Source of the DNA: Allobosea sp. CS1GBMeth4
GTDB taxonomy: Bacteria > Pseudomonadota > Alphaproteobacteria > Rhizobiales > Beijerinckiaceae
Reading direction: 5' to 3'
Length of the DNA: 64,000 nt
Assembly (NCBI RefSeq): GCF_900185715.1
Contig: NZ_FYAS01000030.1
Coordinates: forward strand, 62,001-126,000
The notes beneath the pieces were generated by a model. That model was not told the DNA's origin and did no database searches. It was given only the letters and a program-made list of their open reading frames with translations. Positions 45,856 to 53,206 of the stretch are shown here, one piece after another. The first letter of the stretch is position 1. Every line of letters starts with the position of its first letter. Both the position numbers and the translations under genes were made by a program.

Positions 45856-46974
45856 TCACCCCCCGAACGGCCAGCGCGGCTCGATCACGCCGACCTGGGC
45901 ACGGTGGCGCAGGAACTGGTCGGCGAGCACGCAGGCGACCATGGCCTCGCCCACCGGCACGGCGCGGATGCCGACGCAGGGGTCGTGCCGCCCCTTCGTG
46001 AACATCTCGGCCTCGCCGCCGGTGCGGGTCACGGTGGCGCGGGGCGACAGGATCGACGAGGTCGGCTTCACCGCGAAGCGCGCCACGATCGGCTGACCGG
46101 TCGCGATGCCGCCGAGGATGCCGCCGGCATGGTTCGACAGGAACAGCGGCCGGCCGTCATTGCCGGCGCGCATCTCGTCGGCGTTCTCCTCGCCGGAAAG
46201 CTCGGCCGCGCCGAAGCCGTCACCGATCTCGACCCCCTTGACCGCGTTGATGCTCATCAGCGCCGCCGCGATCTCGGCGTCGAGCTTGCCGTAGATCGGC
46301 GCGCCCAGCCCCGCCGGCACGCCTTCCGCGACGATCTCCAGCACCGCCCCGATCGAGGACCCGGCCTTGCGGATGCCGTCGAGATAATCGGCGAAGCGCT
46401 CGGCCGCCTTCGCGTCCGGGCAGAAGAAGGGATTGCGGCCGACCTCGTCCCAATCCCAATTGCCGCGATCGATCCTGTGCGGCCCCATCTGGACGAGGGC
46501 GCCGCGCACGACCAGGCCCGGCACGACCTTGCGGGCGATCGCCCCGGCCGCGACCCGCATCGCCGTCTCGCGCGCCGACGAGCGCCCGCCGCCGCGATAG
46601 TCGCGAATGCCGTATTTCACGTCATAGGTGAAATCGGCATGGCCGGGACGGTACTTGTCCTTGATCTCGGAATAGTCCTTCGAGCGCTGGTCGACATTGT
46701 CGATCATCAGCCCGATCGAGGTTCCCGTCGTGACCTGCTCGCCATCGGCCTCCCGGGCGAAGACGCCGGAGACGATCCGGACCTGGTCCGGCTCCTGGCG
46801 CTGCGTCGTGTAGCGCGACTGGCCGGGCCGCCGCCGGTCGAGCTCGCGCTGGATCTCGGCCTCGCTCAGCGGGATCAGCGGCGGGCAGCCGTCGACGACG
46901 CAGCCGATAGCAGGCCCATGGCTCTCGCCGAAGGTGGTGACGCGGAAGAGATGGCCGAAACTGTTGTGGGACAT
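45856..46974 (-). CDS. aroC: Chorismate synthase
   Basis: A 372-residue AroC, which converts 5-enolpyruvylshikimate 3-phosphate to chorismate using reduced FMN. Signature segments are visible: [75 protein letters not shown] and the C-terminal [18 protein letters not shown]. Length and motif order are normal. ATG 46974 ([10 protein letters not shown]) is the family start; the longer frame adds a Cys/Arg-rich tail. It sits 31 bp downstream of the toxin-antitoxin pair, same strand. Confidence 0.97.
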
Positions 46975-47005
46975 GAGTGCCTGGCGAGACTGGAGCGCTC
47001 GCTTC

Positions 47006-47452
47006 TTATCCGGTTTCCGGCAGCGGCGGCAGCCCCTGAAACGGATCGAATGCGGAAACACCCAAGGGTGCGAAATGCCTCAGGTTTCTGGTCAGCACGG
47101 TCAAGCCGTGCGCCTTGGCCGTCGCGGCGATGGCGATATCCTCGAAGCCCGGCCGATGAGCCCGTGCCCGGTCGATCAGGTCCCCGGCAAACTGCGCGCA
47201 GCGCAGGTCGAACGGGAGCACCTTCTCGCCATAGAAGTGCTCGACCGCCTGCCACCACGCGGCGAGCGCGCGTGCCTTGGCGCCTGCACCTTCCCGCTCC
47301 GCCTTCGCGATGCCGGCCTGCACCTCGGCCGCCGTGACAACCGAGAGAAAGAGCTGCGCGCTCGCCCGATCGAGCCAGACGGCCAGCTCCGTCGTCTCCA
47401 TCCGCTTCGAGGGGGCGAGCGCCGAGATCACATTGGTGTCGACCAGGAACAT
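47006..47452 (-). CDS. VapC-type PIN-domain ribonuclease toxin
   Basis: A 148-residue PIN-domain protein. Acidic residues of the active site are Asp5 ([11 protein letters not shown]), Glu43 ([11 protein letters not shown]) and Asp105 ([13 protein letters not shown]), and the closing motif is [11 protein letters not shown]. VapC toxins cleave tRNA or other RNA. Length and order are typical. Its start codon shares one base with the stop of the Phd-type antitoxin upstream, the usual antitoxin-first arrangement. Lies between aroC and a lipoprotein gene, in a stretch that looks inserted relative to the housekeeping genes on both sides. Confidence 0.92.
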
Positions 47453-47694
47453 CAGAGATCGGCAGGCGAACGGAGCTCTCCGCTTCGGGCAGGGATGTCC
47501 TCCGCCTCCCCCGGAAACGCCGCCAGCAGATGCCCGAAGCTCGGCGAGCGCGCGAGCCGCTCATACTCCGCGAACGACATGACCACCGCGTCCTTGCGGC
47601 CATGCCGTGTGATGATCGACGGCTTCCCGCGAACGGCCTGGTCGACCACCGCGGACAAGGTCGCCTTCGCATCCTTGAGCTGGATCTCACGCAT
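47452..47694 (-). CDS. Phd/YefM-family antitoxin
   Basis: An 80-residue protein beginning MREIQLKDAKATLSAVVDQA, then VRGKPSIITRHGRKDAVVMS and FAEYERL, the Phd/YefM DNA-binding fold. The C-terminal tail (about residues 55-80) would wrap and neutralise the PIN toxin encoded immediately downstream. Phd-type antitoxins also repress their own operon; a short inverted repeat precedes the gene. The pairing of a Phd/YefM antitoxin with a PIN (VapC) toxin is a well-known hybrid arrangement. Confidence 0.92.
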   Translation of the reverse strand: MREIQLKDAKATLSAVVDQAVRGKPSIITRHGRKDAVVMSFAEYERLARSPSFGHLLAAFPGEAEDIPARSGELRSPADL

Positions 47695-47777: not shown

Positions 47778-48173
47778 TCACTTCACGTCGATGACGATGT
47801 CCTTGCTCGTGACAAAGCGCCCGCCGCCATCGTTGCGGATGCCGTCATACTTCAAAGTCAGCCGATCTTGGCCGCGAAAGCCGGAACTGGGCGTGTAGAT
47901 CGACACGCGATAGTCGACGACTTTGCCGTCGCATCTGTCGCCGGGCAGCTTGAGCGGGTGCTTGACCAGCGTATGGGTCACCCGCCCATGTGCCGGCGCT
48001 GTCTCGATCGAAACCTCGGGCGGTTCCCACGCCCAGCACGATCCGTCCGTGTACATCGTAAACGCATAGGCAACGACAGGGGTATTCACCTTCGTCGTTG
48101 TCGTATGGGCAGCGTTGCAGCCAGCCAACACGATCGCCGCAACGCCGAGCCCGGCGCAAATCCTGATCGTCAT
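47778..48173 (-). CDS. Hypothetical lipoprotein
   Basis: A 131-residue protein with signal MTIRICAGLGVAAIVLAGCN and lipobox LAGC (Cys19). The mature part (YAFTMYTDGSCWAWEPPEVS, then SSGFRGQDRLTLKYDGIRND) looks like a small all-beta domain of the Ig-like type; a Cys pair (in GSCWAW and GDRCDG) may form a disulfide. I do not recognise a specific family. GC is lower than the surroundings. It is upstream of the Phd/VapC pair and downstream of the large NRPS-like gene, same strand, with no overlap. Confidence 0.75.
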   Translation of the reverse strand: MTIRICAGLGVAAIVLAGCNAAHTTTTKVNTPVVAYAFTMYTDGSCWAWEPPEVSIETAPAHGRVTHTLVKHPLKLPGDRCDGKVVDYRVSIYTPSSGFRGQDRLTLKYDGIRNDGGGRFVTSKDIVIDVK

Positions 48174-48243: not shown

Positions 48244-51200
48244 TCAATGCTGCGAGGCTGCCGCCGGCACCGCAGGCGCGCCCTCCCAGCGCGTGTTCGC
48301 CGGCAGGCTCTCGCCCTTCATGATCACGGTCAGCAGGCCGATCTGGGCGTAGTCGCCGACATGGGTGTCGTAGAGCACGGTCGCGCCGGCGCCGACGCAG
48401 ACGCCCTTGCCGAGCGTGACCTTGCCGACCTTCATCACCCGGTCCTCGTAGAGATGGGTCTGCAGCGCCGAATGGGCGTTGACGGTGCAGAAATCGCCGA
48501 CCTTGATGCAGTCGAACTCGGTGATGTCGGTCGAGTCCAGCCACACGCCCTGCCCGTATTGCGCCCCGAACAGGCGCAGGAACCAGGGCAGGAACGGCGT
48601 GCCGCGCAGATAGTCGAGCAGCACCTTGCCGCCGAGCCCCCAGTAGAGCACCGCGACCGCCTCGGTGCGCATCGCCCAGAACGACCACATCGGCTTCATC
48701 ACCGGCCTGTAGACGCCCATCAGCAGCCATTTCATCAGCGCGCAGATCAGCGTCTGCACGACGGCGATGACCACGGCGCAGCCCATGAAGGCGAGCGCGA
48801 GGCCAGCCCAGTCGCGATCGAAGATCTTCTGCTGGAGCACGAGGTCGACGGCGAGCGTGCCGAAGGTGATGAACAGCATCGCCGGGAAGGAGGTGTGCAG
48901 CGCCTCGAAGGCAGCGCGCCCCAGCTGCTTGCCGAGCGAGGGCTTGTAGGTCCAGTCGACGCCGAGATCGACCTTCTGCCGCGTCGGCAGCCTGATCGGC
49001 GGCGAGCCGAACCAGGTGTCGCCGGCGCTCATCAGCGCGTTCGCCGGCGGCTTCGACTTGATGCCGATCAGCACCCGGTCGGGAATCACGGTGCCGGGCG
49101 GCACCACCGCGTCGTTGCCGACGAAGACCTGTTCGCCGGTAAGGGTCATGTCGAGGCGCATATAGCCGCGCCGCATGTCCTCGTCGCCGAAGATCACCTC
49201 GTCGGCGATGAAGTTGCCGGCGCCGATGCCGGTGATGTCGTAGCGGCCGGACAGATTGGTCGAGATCTCGGCGCCCTGCCCGATCCTGGCGCCCATCATC
49301 CGGTACCAGAAGCGCATGTAGATCGTGGCGAACAGCGAGGACAGCGTCTCCAGCGTCACCTCCGTCGCCAGCGCCACCGTCCATTTGCGGGCATAGAAGC
49401 TCGAATGGATCGAATAGGAGCCCGAGGAGACGCGCGGCAGGATCGCCCAGCGCAGGGCCGCGATCAGGAACACGGTGATCGCGATCAGGCCGATCGCCGT
49501 CGGCCAGGTCAGCAATGGCAGGTACCAGAGATAGCTGACGTCCGACCAGGTCGCGACCCAGTTGTCGATCCTGTCGAACAGCCAGAAGGCCGGGAAGATC
49601 GGCAGCAGGCTGATCGGCGGCAGGGCGATCAGCATGACGACGTAGAACAGCGTCATCGCCGCCCGCCTGCGGCTGCTCGCCTGCGCCTGCTCGGGCAGCG
49701 CCGCGAGATCGACCTGGCCGGTCCTGCGCGCCGGCGAGCCGTCCCAGATCTCGGCCTCGCCGATCCTGGCGCCCGGCGCGATCGCGGTCAGGTCGCAGAT
49801 CTCGGCATGGTCGCCGACCTCGCAGCCATGGCCGAACACCACGGACGAGCCTGCATAGACGTCCTTGCCGAGCGTGATGCGGCCGATGACGAAATCGGCC
49901 CCGATCGCCTCGGCATTGGCGAAGGTCGTCTTCGAGCCGAGCGTGGTGCCGTCGCCGATCTCGATGAGGTCGACGGCGCCGGCCTCGTAATCGGAAATGA
50001 TGACGTCGCGCCCGACTCTGGCGCCGAGCAGGCGCCAGTAGAAGCGCATCACCGGCGTGCCCTGCAGCCATTTGATGTGCACGAGCCCGGCGACCCGTGA
50101 TGCGAACCACCAGCGGAAATAGTAGACGCCCCAGAGCGGATAGGTGCCGGGCTTCGTCCGGCCGAGCACCAGCCATTTCAGGCCGATCGAGATGAAGCCG
50201 GTGGCGATCGTGATCGCGACATAGATGCCGAGCAGCGCGAAGACCTGCGCCATCGCCGACAATTCCTCGCCGGAGAGCAGCATGTAGCTGACGAAGATGC
50301 CGAGCCATTGCGCCGTCGACAGGCTGATGATGACCGGCAGCGCGACCGCCTGCGCCAGCCCGCACAGGAAGCGGCGCAGCAGCGGCGGCGGCGTGAAGGA
50401 GAGGTCCTCTTCGGCCCGCGCGCCGCGCGCGTCGAGCAGCGCCGCCATCGCCCGCAGGGTGCGCGCGCCATAGACGTCCTGCAGCGTGATCCCGGCATGG
50501 GCCGGCGTCTCGCGCACGATCGAGATGAAGCGCGCCGCCAGCAGCGAATGGCCGCCGAGGTCGACGAAGAAATCGGCCTCCAGCGGCAGCGCCTGCGCGC
50601 CGAGCACGCGCTTGGCCGCGTCGAGCAGGGCCGCCTCGGTCTCGTTGCGCGGCGGCTCCTGCTGGCCGCTCGCAGCCGGGGCGGTCAGCGGCGCCGCCTT
50701 CAGCATCTTGCGGTCGACCTTGCCGGAGACCATGCGCGGCAGCGAGCCGATCGGCTCGAAATGCGCAGGGATCATGTAGGGCGGCAGCCTCTCGCGCAGC
50801 GAGGCGCGCAGCACGGCGCCTTCCATCTGGACCCCCGGCTCGCCGACCAGGAAGGCGACGAGCCGCTCGATGCCGTCATCGGTGCGCAGGACCACCGCCG
50901 CCTGGCCGACGCCGGCCTCGTCGGTGAGCGCCGTCTCGATCTCGCCGAGCTCGACCCGGAAGCCGCGGATCTTGACCTGGTCGTCGATGCGCCCGTGGAA
51001 GACGATATTGCCGTTCTCGTCCAGGCTGACCGCGTCGCCGGAACGGTAGAGGATCGGATCGTCGCCGCTGGTGCCGAACGGGTTGGCGATGAACTTCTCG
51101 GCGGTCAGCTCCGGCCGCAGATGGTAGCCCTTCGCCACGCCGGGGCCGCCGATCAGCAATTCGCCCTGCTGGCCGATGCCGGCCAGCTTCATCTCCTCGT

Positions 51201-52257
51201 CGACGATATAGGCGGTGTAGTTCGGAATCGGCCGGCCGATCGTCACGGTCTGGCCGGGCTCGACCGGAGCGGCGGTCGCCACCACCGTCGCCTCCGTCGG
51301 CCCGTAGGTGTTGAAGATGCGCCGGCCCGGTCTCGACCATTTCTGCACGATCGAGGGCGGCAGCGCCTCGCCGCCGAGCAGGATCAGCTTCAGCGAGGGC
51401 ACGTCGGCGGGCAGGATGCCGAGCAGGGTCGGCACGGTATCGATCACGGTGACACCGGCCTCGGCCAGGATGGCCGGCAGCATCTCGGCGTCGCCCATCA
51501 TCTGCGGCGTCGCGACGAACAGGGTCGCGCCGACGAGATAAGGCGTCCAGATCTCCTCCATCGACAGGTCGAAGGCGACCGAGGCACCCTGGAAGACCAC
51601 GTCCTGCGGACCCATGCCGTAGATCGCGTTTCCGGAGCGCAGGAAATGGCAGATGTTGCGATGGCTGATGACGATCGCCTTCGGCGTGCCGGTCGAGCCC
51701 GAGGTGTAGATCAGATAGGCCGGGTGATCGGGCGTGAGCCCCGGCGCCCGCGCCGGCAGCGCCTGCCCGTCGCTCGCCTGCGCCAGCTGTTGCGGGCACC
51801 AGACCGTGCGACCGGTCGCCGCCGCGCGCGTCTTCCAGTCGGTCTGCGTCACCAGCCCCTTGGCGCTGGCGTCCTCGAGGCAGACGGCGATGCGCTCGAC
51901 CGGCGCCTCGGCATCGAAAGGCAGCCAGGCCGCCCCCGACAGCGTGATCGCGATCTGCGCCACGAGCAGCTCGATGCCGCGCGGCATCCACAGGCCGACC
52001 ATGTCGCCCGGGCCGACGCCGGCCAGCACGAGCCCGCGCGCCTGCGCCTGCGCCTGCTGCCAGACCTGCGCATAGCTCAGCCGCAGCTCGCCCGAGATCA
52101 TCGCGACATGGTCGGGACGCGCGGAGACGCTCGCCGCGAAGATCTCGGCGAGCACCTCGTCGCGCAGCAAGTCCGGCCGCTTCTCGCCCGCCAACATCGC
52201 GAGCGCGGTCGCGGCCGAGTCGGCGGTGCCCGCCGAAACCGTGGTGATATCGTTCAT
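48244..52257 (-). CDS. Pls/PosA-family membrane NRPS-like poly(amino acid) synthetase
   Basis: A 1337-residue single-module enzyme. Residues about 20-525: adenylation domain with YTSGSTGTPK (184-193), FDLSMEEIW (229-237), NTYGPTE (316-322) and the catalytic Lys513 (SGKVDRK). Residues 540-610: carrier domain with phosphopantetheine Ser571 in DLGGHSLLAARF. The rest holds three pairs of membrane helices (about 629-697, 868-938, 1125-1172), each followed by a soluble domain with left-handed beta-helix (hexapeptide) character. This A-T-(TM2-C)x3 layout is that of the epsilon-poly-lysine synthetase Pls family. There is no thioesterase. The start at 52257 begins just before the A domain; an upstream extension to 52350 is Arg-rich. 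It is monocistronic, flanked by a lipoprotein and a phosphatase gene. A cationic isopeptide homopolymer is the likely product (inference). Confidence 0.85.
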   Translation of the reverse strand: MNDITTVSAGTADSAATALAMLAGEKRPDLLRDEVLAEIFAASVSARPDHVAMISGELRLSYAQVWQQAQAQARGLVLAGVGPGDMVGLWMPRGIELLVAQIAITLSGAAWLPFDAEAPVERIAVCLEDASAKGLVTQTDWKTRAAATGRTVWCPQQLAQASDGQALPARAPGLTPDHPAYLIYTSGSTGTPKAIVISHRNICHFLRSGNAIYGMGPQDVVFQGASVAFDLSMEEIWTPYLVGATLFVATPQMMGDAEMLPAILAEAGVTVIDTVPTLLGILPADVPSLKLILLGGEALPPSIVQKWSRPGRRIFNTYGPTEATVVATAAPVEPGQTVTIGRPIPNYTAYIVDEEMKLAGIGQQGELLIGGPGVAKGYHLRPELTAEKFIANPFGTSGDDPILYRSGDAVSLDENGNIVFHGRIDDQVKIRGFRVELGEIETALTDEAGVGQAAVVLRTDDGIERLVAFLVGEPGVQMEGAVLRASLRERLPPYMIPAHFEPIGSLPRMVSGKVDRKMLKAAPLTAPAASGQQEPPRNETEAALLDAAKRVLGAQALPLEADFFVDLGGHSLLAARFISIVRETPAHAGITLQDVYGARTLRAMAALLDARGARAEEDLSFTPPPLLRRFLCGLAQAVALPVIISLSTAQWLGIFVSYMLLSGEELSAMAQVFALLGIYVAITIATGFISIGLKWLVLGRTKPGTYPLWGVYYFRWWFASRVAGLVHIKWLQGTPVMRFYWRLLGARVGRDVIISDYEAGAVDLIEIGDGTTLGSKTTFANAEAIGADFVIGRITLGKDVYAGSSVVFGHGCEVGDHAEICDLTAIAPGARIGEAEIWDGSPARRTGQVDLAALPEQAQASSRRRAAMTLFYVVMLIALPPISLLPIFPAFWLFDRIDNWVATWSDVSYLWYLPLLTWPTAIGLIAITVFLIAALRWAILPRVSSGSYSIHSSFYARKWTVALATEVTLETLSSLFATIYMRFWYRMMGARIGQGAEISTNLSGRYDITGIGAGNFIADEVIFGDEDMRRGYMRLDMTLTGEQVFVGNDAVVPPGTVIPDRVLIGIKSKPPANALMSAGDTWFGSPPIRLPTRQKVDLGVDWTYKPSLGKQLGRAAFEALHTSFPAMLFITFGTLAVDLVLQQKIFDRDWAGLALAFMGCAVVIAVVQTLICALMKWLLMGVYRPVMKPMWSFWAMRTEAVAVLYWGLGGKVLLDYLRGTPFLPWFLRLFGAQYGQGVWLDSTDITEFDCIKVGDFCTVNAHSALQTHLYEDRVMKVGKVTLGKGVCVGAGATVLYDTHVGDYAQIGLLTVIMKGESLPANTRWEGAPAVPAAASQH

Positions 52258-52464: not shown

Positions 52465-53061
52465 TCACATCCATGTTGCCCTGGCGCCCTCGACCACCAG
52501 GATCTTGCCCTGCCAGATCTCGATACGGGCGGCGTCCGCGGTGCCGACCGCGCCGATCAGCGCCAGCACCGCCCGCGCCACGCCACCATGGCTGACCATC
52601 ACCGTATCCGGCGCCAGGCTTTCGATCGCCGGCCTGATCCGCTCCGCCAGCATGCGATAGCTCTCGCCGCCGGGCGGCACGAAGCCCCATTTGTCGCGCT
52701 CCCGGGCCTGGGCGAGCTCGCGCTCGCGGCTGCGGATCTCGCGCCAGGTGAAGCCCTCCCAGGCACCGAAGGTCAGTTCGCGCAGCCGCTCGTCGATGCG
52801 GAAGCGCTCGGGCTCCAGGCCGAGCTCCCGACGCATGATCGTCATCGTGTCGCGGGCGCGCAGCATCGGCGAGCAGACATAGTCGACCGCGGCGTAGTCC
52901 GGCGTCAGCTTCTTCAGCCGTCGCGCCGCCTCCTCGGCCTGCATGCGGCCGAGCGCGTTCAGCGGGATGTCCTGCCCGCCCTGCAGCCGGCCTTCCCGAT
53001 TCCAGTCGGTCTCGCCGTGGCGGACGAGGAAAAGGCGACCTGGAATCGTCAAGGCAGTCAT
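52465..53061 (-). CDS. Histidine phosphatase family protein (phosphoglycerate-mutase-like)
   Basis: A 198-residue phosphatase. The catalytic motif is RLFLVRHGETDWNREGRLQG (RHG), and VMVSHGGVARAVLALIG supplies the second histidine; EAWEGF-type GAWEGFTWREI lies between. This is the cofactor-independent-looking histidine phosphatase group (CobC/PGAM-like). ATG 53061 (MTALTIPGRLFLVRHG) is more credible than the 12-residue longer start. In Hyphomicrobiales such a gene commonly lies near fabI and aroC, as here. Substrate not clear. Confidence 0.9.
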   Translation of the reverse strand: MTALTIPGRLFLVRHGETDWNREGRLQGGQDIPLNALGRMQAEEAARRLKKLTPDYAAVDYVCSPMLRARDTMTIMRRELGLEPERFRIDERLRELTFGAWEGFTWREIRSRERELAQARERDKWGFVPPGGESYRMLAERIRPAIESLAPDTVMVSHGGVARAVLALIGAVGTADAARIEIWQGKILVVEGARATWM

Positions 53062-53206
53062 ACCCTGCCTCATGCACGTTGAGCACCGCCACGTCAAAGC
53101 GGCGAAAGCGCCGCGCAGGCGTCCTCACTGCCTCGTGAGCTTTGTGGTGGCCGTCCCCCATGGGCCTGTGTAAGAGGCGGGCATCTCTCCTCGACGTGTC
53201 GACCAC

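Follow-up and report, generated by a model that had tools for sequence, protein, structure and literature searches.

Domain organization of the synthetase

The stretch of DNA analysed here (the window, 64,000 nucleotides from Allobosea sp. CS1GBMeth4) carries on its minus strand, at 48244..52257, a gene with an ATG start whose 1337-residue product resembles the synthetases of the Pls/PosA family. The original prediction placed the gene at exactly these coordinates but gave no strand; all other features described below also lie on the minus strand. Its reading of the domains as one adenylation (A) domain, one carrier domain with Ser571, no thioesterase and three repeats was borne out by Pfam and profile comparison. 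The A domain (residues 41-513, 50719..52137) matches PF00501 with 270.8 bits and PF13193 with 39.3 bits. The carrier (PP-binding) domain (residues 543-608, 50434..50631) matches PF00550 with 32.3 bits, and Ser571 in its GGHS motif (codon 50545..50547) is the predicted phosphopantetheine attachment site. Matches that pass the Pfam cut-offs are AMP-binding (41-379), AMP-binding_C (439-513), PP-binding (543-608) and Hexapep (794-821). Neither a thioesterase nor a condensation domain was detected with Pfam at E values up to 0.01. A single A domain and a serine-bearing carrier without either of these is the layout of Pls and PosA.

A terminal membrane domain follows (residues 635-1329, 48271..50355). 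In the TIGR02353 search proposed along with the original prediction, it scored 581.5 bits (cut-off 423.1), and positions 2-695 of the 695 in this NCBIfam model of the Pls/PosA family were matched. The C-terminal half is made up of three tandem repeats, each a helix pair and a beta-helix domain, as seen in profile comparisons and in profile matches to solved chains: repeat 1 with C1 (residues 626-863, 49669..50382), repeat 2 with C2 (residues 861-1107, 48937..49677) and repeat 3 with C3 (residues 1105-1337, 48247..48945). Comparison of the repeat profiles with one another gave E values of 3.8e-25 (repeats 1 and 2), 1e-24 (1 and 3) and 3e-12 (2 and 3). Hydropathy suggests six membrane helices, at residues 630-660, 673-691, 870-888, 922-940, 1123-1141 and 1153-1171; the repeats, helices and beta-helix domains together are a trait of Pls and PosA. 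Searched against solved chains, a profile of the C-terminal half gave 77 matches; the best 60 of these, going by their names, are presumably all left-handed-beta-helix proteins. We take the listed chains to include gamma-carbonic anhydrases, LpxD, LpxA, serine acetyltransferases, dynactin subunits and the like.

Most of the invariant polar residues are found in repeat 3. The histidine of its QTHLYED motif, His1268 (codon 48454..48456), is a proposed catalytic base, given its conservation: it is invariant in the 20 members of alignment A1, with an invariant glutamate four residues on, and is histidine in 80 of 80 close relatives. At the aligned place repeat 1 has alanine and repeat 2 glutamate. 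Estimates of dN/dS against three relatives at 81-92% identity (0.17, 0.27 and 0.24) fit purifying selection on the synthetase. A simple estimate against two distant relatives (L162 and L157), where dS is poorly estimated, gave 0.47 and 0.57.

Taken together, domains, repeats and the TIGR02353 match support membership of the Pls/PosA family. The A-T-(TM2-beta-helix)x3 layout is shared with PosA of Acinetobacter baumannii, as described in passages of PMC10522769, and family and layout are likewise shared with the epsilon-poly-L-lysine synthetase Pls of Streptomyces albulus as the literature describes it.

Specificity pocket and closest relatives

The ten specificity residues of the A domain (D230, L231, E234, D273, L293, G295, T317, V325, V326 and K513) lie within 50719..51570 and give the code DLEDLGTVVK. 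The first nine were obtained by alignment to PosA (8g97) and Pls (7wew), and K513 was read separately. This code differs from those of the Lys, Orn, beta-Lys and Dap/Dab enzymes. Aspartate at position 1 (D230) and glutamate at position 3 (E234), both typical of the Pls/PosA family, occupy the places of D217 and E221 in PosA, reported in passages of PMC10522769 as the residues that bind the alpha-amine and the amine of the side chain, respectively. Elsewhere the PosA ornithine code, D-M-E-H-N-G-T-V-S, is replaced by Leu, Asp, Leu and Val at positions 2, 4, 5 and 9. Valine thus stands for Ser313, whose removal lowered PosA activity 183-fold (PMC10522769), and aspartate for His260, so a change of monomer may have taken place. 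The Pls lysine code, D-A-E-S-I-G-T-V-V, has a small residue at position 2; the synthetase has Leu for this Ala and Asp for the Ser that follows at position 4. The poly-Dap/poly-Dab and epsilon-poly-beta-lysine synthetases belong to the same family and share Glu at position 3 but, unlike the window protein, have Phe or Gly at position 2 (passages of PMC10522769).

By sequence, PosA is a nearer relative of the synthetase than Pls is. Among solved chains, the best single-stretch match of the A domain is PosA (441 bits; GrsA gives 302 and Pls 267), and a protein in Acinetobacter baumannii records, taken as PosA, shares 43.9% identity with the full-length synthetase over 98%. In the tree, where lysine-type and ornithine-type rows are labelled by code only and include no characterised enzymes, the DLED and DLES proteins form one clade of 23 rows (SH-aLRT 100), separate from the PosA-code rows but nested among rows with the ornithine code DMEHNG, so that the ancestor was probably of the ornithine type. 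The clade stands inside this ornithine-code grade and not beside the two lysine-code rows, and rows with Dap/Dab- or beta-Lys-type codes are on other branches. The pocket code and this position beside PosA-code proteins are the grounds for rejecting a lysine-type Pls. Of the Pls architecture first proposed for this gene, membership of the wider Pls/PosA family therefore stands and the lysine type does not. The original prediction also took the product class as one described mainly from actinomycetes and fungi; it is not confined there, since a paper of 2023 described PosA from Acinetobacter and noted homologues across many phyla (passages of PMC10522769).

The same passages of Patel & Gulick 2023 list 'D L E D I G T V T/V/I K' homologues from Archaea, Rhizobia and Methylobacterium, there without an assigned substrate. 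The window protein, with a nearly identical pocket, is a member of this set. Clade, frequency, synteny and transferase linkage of the DLED set are additions to what those passages hold.

Neighbouring genes and distribution

The synthetase gene is flanked upstream by a histidine phosphatase gene (52465..53097, PF00300) and downstream by aroC, for chorismate synthase (45856..46980, PF01264). Both are conserved neighbours by synteny, and in loci of the host's family the synthetase gene is often found between them. Neither is a proposed partner. In the 60 family genomes with no TIGR02353 match, aroC was present in 17 of the 17 examined, and in three synthetase-less loci (L241, L244 and L248) the phosphatase gene directly adjoins aroC, with ribB beyond; the remaining ones have a longer gap, or no phosphatase gene within the 1.5 kb fetched. 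Given this persistence in genomes that lack the synthetase, the neighbours were rejected as pathway partners. Four of 33 DLED loci of the family (L068, L082, L096 and L100) have none of the window's neighbours.

A Pfam scan of seven neighbours identified six, with one left without a match, and found neither a self-protection nor a monomer-supply gene, and no peptidase. Thus no degrading gene of the pldII type, named in passages of PMC8117764 as context of the Pls gene, was seen among them; for PosA, a single-gene operon is described (passages of PMC10522769). In a few relatives, of 140 loci searched, a phosphopantetheinyl transferase gene adjoins the synthetase gene, and none was found in the genome neighbourhood of the window's synthetase.

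The synthetase is not rare in the host's family: TIGR02353 is present in 139 of 199 genomes, and the DLED code in 33 of 35 sampled loci. The enzyme family is already known, and its DLED branch is common in the host's family. Plasmid copies occur in Azospirillum and Rhizobium. Identity of the synthetase correlates with that of aroC at a Spearman coefficient of 0.24 (25 proteins; reached in 51 of 2000 permutations) and with that of fabI at 0.36 (24 proteins; reached in 3 of 2000). Set beside the plasmid copies and the DLED loci without the window's neighbours, these values lend strict vertical descent weak support. A viral origin was set aside, as one scan of viral contigs found no relative.

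Proposed product, monomer and role

The protein is probably a membrane-bound, single-module synthetase that makes a short cationic isopeptide homo-oligomer. The A domain would adenylate a basic diamino acid and load it onto Ser571 of the carrier, itself phosphopantetheinylated, we infer, by a transferase encoded elsewhere in the host genome. The pseudo-trimeric beta-helix domain on the membrane would then move amino-acid units onto the growing chain via isopeptide bonds. A single active site most likely does this, suggested by conservation to lie in the third repeat around His1268. This reading draws support from the TIGR02353 score, the full-length match in A. baumannii records, the scarcity of a Dab transaminase among carriers, the transferase gene adjoining the synthetase gene in several relatives, the invariant His and Glu of repeat 3, and the two DLES members of the clade, which depart from the Pls code chiefly in having Leu where Pls has Ala at the chain-length position. 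Against it stand Val for Ser313 and Asp for His260, the absence of self-protection and monomer-supply genes among the seven neighbours scanned, and the small number of loci with an adjoining transferase. The cationic homo-poly(amino acid) of the original prediction survives as the best inference, shorn of the lysine-type enzyme.

L-Ornithine is the leading candidate for the monomer, at a little under even odds. It is favoured by PosA as the best single-stretch A-domain match among solved chains, the retention of D230 and E234, and the nesting of the clade among DMEHNG rows. L-Lysine, with epsilon-poly-L-lysine as product, is rather unlikely. Its supply in cells is constant, code positions 5-9 match those of Pls (I-G-T-V-V) up to Leu for Ile, and the DLES variants of the clade have the Pls-like Ser at position 4. 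The leucine that replaces the Pls alanine at position 2, the chain-length position, however, leaves less room; residue size there is linked to chain length, and the M218A change in PosA raised lysine use nearly 10-fold (passages of PMC10522769). The clade also lies away from the two lysine-code rows, themselves uncharacterised.

It is improbable that the enzyme, instead of polymerising, passes a single aminoacyl unit on to a lipid, polyamine or surface polymer. The terminal domain does resemble acyltransferase-type beta-helices, and the near-core distribution and housekeeping setting would suit maintenance more than antibiosis, but members with Pls, PosA and Dap/Dab codes have the layout and the repeat-3 QxH motif in common, and the products of PosA in vitro are 7-12-mers (PMC10522769). 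As monomer, arginine or another basic amino acid bound by E234 and D273 is a still poorer prospect: a Bdellovibrionales homologue is modestly active with L-Arg (PMC10522769), and Asp at position 4 is restricted to the DLED clade among the surveyed codes, but Leu231 narrows the pocket. This Asp may moreover not be essential, since, of the 76 close relatives whose code could be read, two have Ser at position 4. D-L-E is also the start of the code in the Dab module of PvdL, a likeness that would favour 2,4-diaminobutyrate (Dab). Dab is nonetheless very unlikely, having been lowered from first choice because its transaminase is wanting (TIGR00709 is above cut-off in 12 of 139 carriers and has no match at E<=1e-60 in the host genome, though other enzymes could supply Dab); the Dat and aspartate kinase genes drawn as context of a poly-Dab synthetase (passages of PMC8117764) are absent among the seven neighbours scanned, and Dap/Dab-type enzymes have Phe at position 2 (passages of PMC10522769) where Leu stands here.

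For the short cationic homo-oligomer preferred here, a tentative proposal, on balance doubtful, is that the DLED clade makes one undescribed so far, or uses a new pocket to make a known one, and that this product belongs to the normal, near-core make-up of cells in Bosea, Methylobacterium and other family members and is not a sporadic antibiotic; it might for example be a surface polycation, with two-component control in rhizobia. Cationic homo-poly(amino acid)s serve, or are under study, as preservatives, antifungals and cell-penetrating carriers, and the DLED synthetase may add a new polymer. It is kept by most sampled genomes of a family that includes plant-associated, genetically tractable bacteria, and would offer a direct route to the role of the polymer for the cell that makes it.

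Architecture and the C-terminal half

The gene at 48244-52257 on the minus strand encodes a 1337-residue protein in which Pfam places an AMP-binding domain (residues 41-379), an AMP-binding C-terminal part (439-513), a carrier domain (543-608) and a hexapeptide stretch. Ser571 is the carrier serine, as in the original prediction, and the terminal-domain search agrees with its assignment to the Pls/PosA family: TIGR02353, the NCBIfam model of that domain, spans residues 635-1329 at 581.5 bits, above the cut-off of 423.1. Judged by this architecture, the protein truly belongs to a known family and is an ordinary representative of it.

The three repeats proposed for the C-terminal half (R1 to R3, from residue 626) were borne out by profile comparison in an alignment of 58 sequences (E of 3.8e-25 for R1-R2, 1e-24 for R1-R3 and 3e-12 for R2-R3). 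Each contains two hydrophobic helix candidates. Among solved chains, 77 matched a profile of the half; the 60 listed, which from their names we take to be left-handed-beta-helix proteins throughout, include matches in R1, in R2 and in R3. R3 alone gave a weak match to a gamma-carbonic anhydrase and serine acetyltransferases (E about 0.001). The repeats and the beta-helix matches agree with the modelling by Patel & Gulick 2023 (PMC10522769).

R3 is also richest in polar residues that are invariant among 20 aligned members. In the numbering of the half these are E574, T595, Q641, H643, E646, K651, Y671, K689 and E691, with Q11, K69 and R90 in R1 and D394 and N423 in R2. H643, in the motif QTHLYED, is residue 1268 of the whole protein and is His in all of the 80 best-matching named relatives; the carrier Ser is kept in 79, the remaining one being a shortened sequence. 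In the repeat alignments the place of His1268 is taken by Ala in R1 and Glu in R2. Because the invariant polar residues crowd R3 and these counterparts differ, the half is predicted to be a pseudo-trimer that has retained one active site.

Adenylation pocket and monomer

Aligned to PosA, the delta-poly-L-ornithine synthetase of Acinetobacter baumannii (8g97), and to Pls, the epsilon-poly-L-lysine synthetase of Streptomyces albulus (7wew), the first nine places of the pocket code read D-L-E-D-L-G-T-V-V, compared with D-M-E-H-N-G-T-V-S in PosA and D-A-E-S-I-G-T-V-V in Pls; the tenth is K513. For PosA, PMC10522769 reports Glu221 as the residue that binds the side-chain amine and residue 218 as the one that limits chain length, with Ser313 and Thr304 assisting. 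Among the signatures of unknown substrate in the same source is 'D L E D I G T V T/V/I K', from Archaea, Rhizobia and Methylobacterium. Since that signature is nearly identical, this kind of pocket has already been published, and the window protein, judged by its pocket, is a member of the listed set and of an unstudied subgroup.

Another 20 TIGR02353 proteins had their codes read and were placed with others in a 45-row tree (ten code columns excluded, truncated row L102 dropped; a quick tree with SH-aLRT support only). The 23 rows with DLED or DLES codes form one side of a branch with SH-aLRT 100 and sit within a grade of seven rows of the DMEHNG (PosA, ornithine) type. Because of this nesting, descent of the clade from ornithine-type enzymes is the simplest reading, the rows being named by code and none characterised. 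The code was readable in 76 of the 80 named relatives (74 DLED, 2 DLES), a uniformity partly due to their selection as best matches; two plasmid copies, one from Rhizobium and the other from Azospirillum, are DLED too. In the dropped locus L102 (7090-17514, minus strand), a 3474-residue stop-free frame includes the C-terminal part of a DLED-clade protein, with 63% identity from residue 385 onward; residues 1-385 of the window protein have no match in it, leaving its code unreadable, and the frame is possibly a frameshift or fusion. A Phe-type member, L099 (5772-12008, plus strand), has about 760 additional in-frame residues ahead of the A domain, to which Pfam matched nothing.

Ornithine is the first choice of monomer, tentatively and at a little under an even chance, because Leu stands at the chain-length position and the ancestor appears to be of ornithine type. 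Against it, the protein has lost Ser313 relative to PosA and gained a second acid in the pocket, and a Dab code also opens D-L-E. Lysine would come second. The Dab transaminase TIGR00709 was above cut-off in 12 of the 139 family genomes carrying TIGR02353, with any match at E<=1e-60 in 37; at that limit none was found in the window's genome. In the contexts drawn in PMC8117764, a poly-Dab synthetase has dat and an aspartate kinase, and pls has pldII; none of these was among seven window neighbours scanned with Pfam. Given the rare transaminase and these absent neighbours, a monomer taken from primary metabolism is favoured.

Neighbouring genes

Pfam identifies chorismate synthase, histidine phosphatase, folP, folB and folK among the window's neighbours; others we take, from reading the sequence, to be fabI, ribB, dnaJ and pdxH. 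In 17 of 33 DLED loci of the host's family the synthetase gene is flanked as in the window, by the phosphatase gene a short way upstream and aroC a short way downstream, all on one strand. The other 16 lack this arrangement, and four (L068, L082, L096, L100) have none of the window's neighbours. aroC was found in all 17 genomes checked from the 60 family genomes without a TIGR02353 match, and in three of them (L241, L244, L248) the phosphatase gene directly adjoins it. At this place the synthetase gene appears to be of long standing in the family. Horizontal transfer is also possible, since synthetase and neighbour-gene identities correlate weakly (0.24 and 0.36) and plasmid copies exist.

Between the synthetase and aroC lies a toxin-antitoxin-like pair (47006-47694, minus strand), a PIN-domain toxin-like gene (47006-47452, PF01850) overlapped by a small ORF (47452-47694) that, from reading, resembles a Phd/YefM-type antitoxin. 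A small lipoprotein-like ORF (47778-48173, minus strand) follows the synthetase at a distance of about 70 bases; a Pfam search matched nothing to it.

The DLED gene stands next to a gene for a 4'-phosphopantetheinyl transferase at L082, L213 and L100 (PF01648, above cut-off), and in Rhizobium sp. CCGE531 such a gene lies 8 bases downstream of it. With the CCGE531 transferase as query, a match lay within 2.5 kb in 5 of 140 loci (L234, L082, L239 on the opposite strand, and L213 with L101, both marking a single place); clustering added L171 and L177. This is a minority arrangement. Three loci in the window's genome match the transferase family, all of them off the window's contig. A two-component system lies divergently upstream of the synthetase in Rhizobium, L234 and L211. 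In Rhizobium this is on a plasmid (L260, 4382-6698), where a sensor kinase and a response regulator, together with a small hypothetical protein, are divergently upstream of the synthetase-transferase pair; such a set could possibly regulate the polymer.

Distribution

The named relatives are led by Bosea, followed by Methylobacterium, Methylocella, Methylosinus, Rhodoblastus, Beijerinckia and Chelatococcus, then Azospirillum, (Para)Magnetospirillum and others; the window is taken to come from Bosea. TIGR02353 was found in 139 of 199 sampled genomes of the host's family, Beijerinckiaceae (136 above cut-off), and in 34 of its 43 genera. In an order-wide draw it was present in 32 of 199 genomes (7 of the 32 from this family), and in a phylum-wide draw in 26 of 398 (12 of the 26 from this family). 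One of 14 named control genomes, Corynebacterium glutamicum, matched; only strong matches were counted because at a loose limit 13 of the 14 did so, 1 above cut-off. A class-wide search with the window protein matched 44 of 385 genomes; 10 of these matches, the window's own included, extend into the terminal domain, the others being to A and carrier domains. Full reading of 35 family loci chosen by the authors gave 33 DLED and 2 Phe-type members. One genome of the host's genus (G513) has two DLED synthetases (L068 and L069), which share 55.5% and 81.3% identity with the window protein, with none of the window's neighbour genes beside the 55.5% copy.

No described alphaproteobacterial product of the Pls/PosA family was found in the open-access literature searched. 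What is odd about this synthetase is mainly how widely one bacterial family keeps it.
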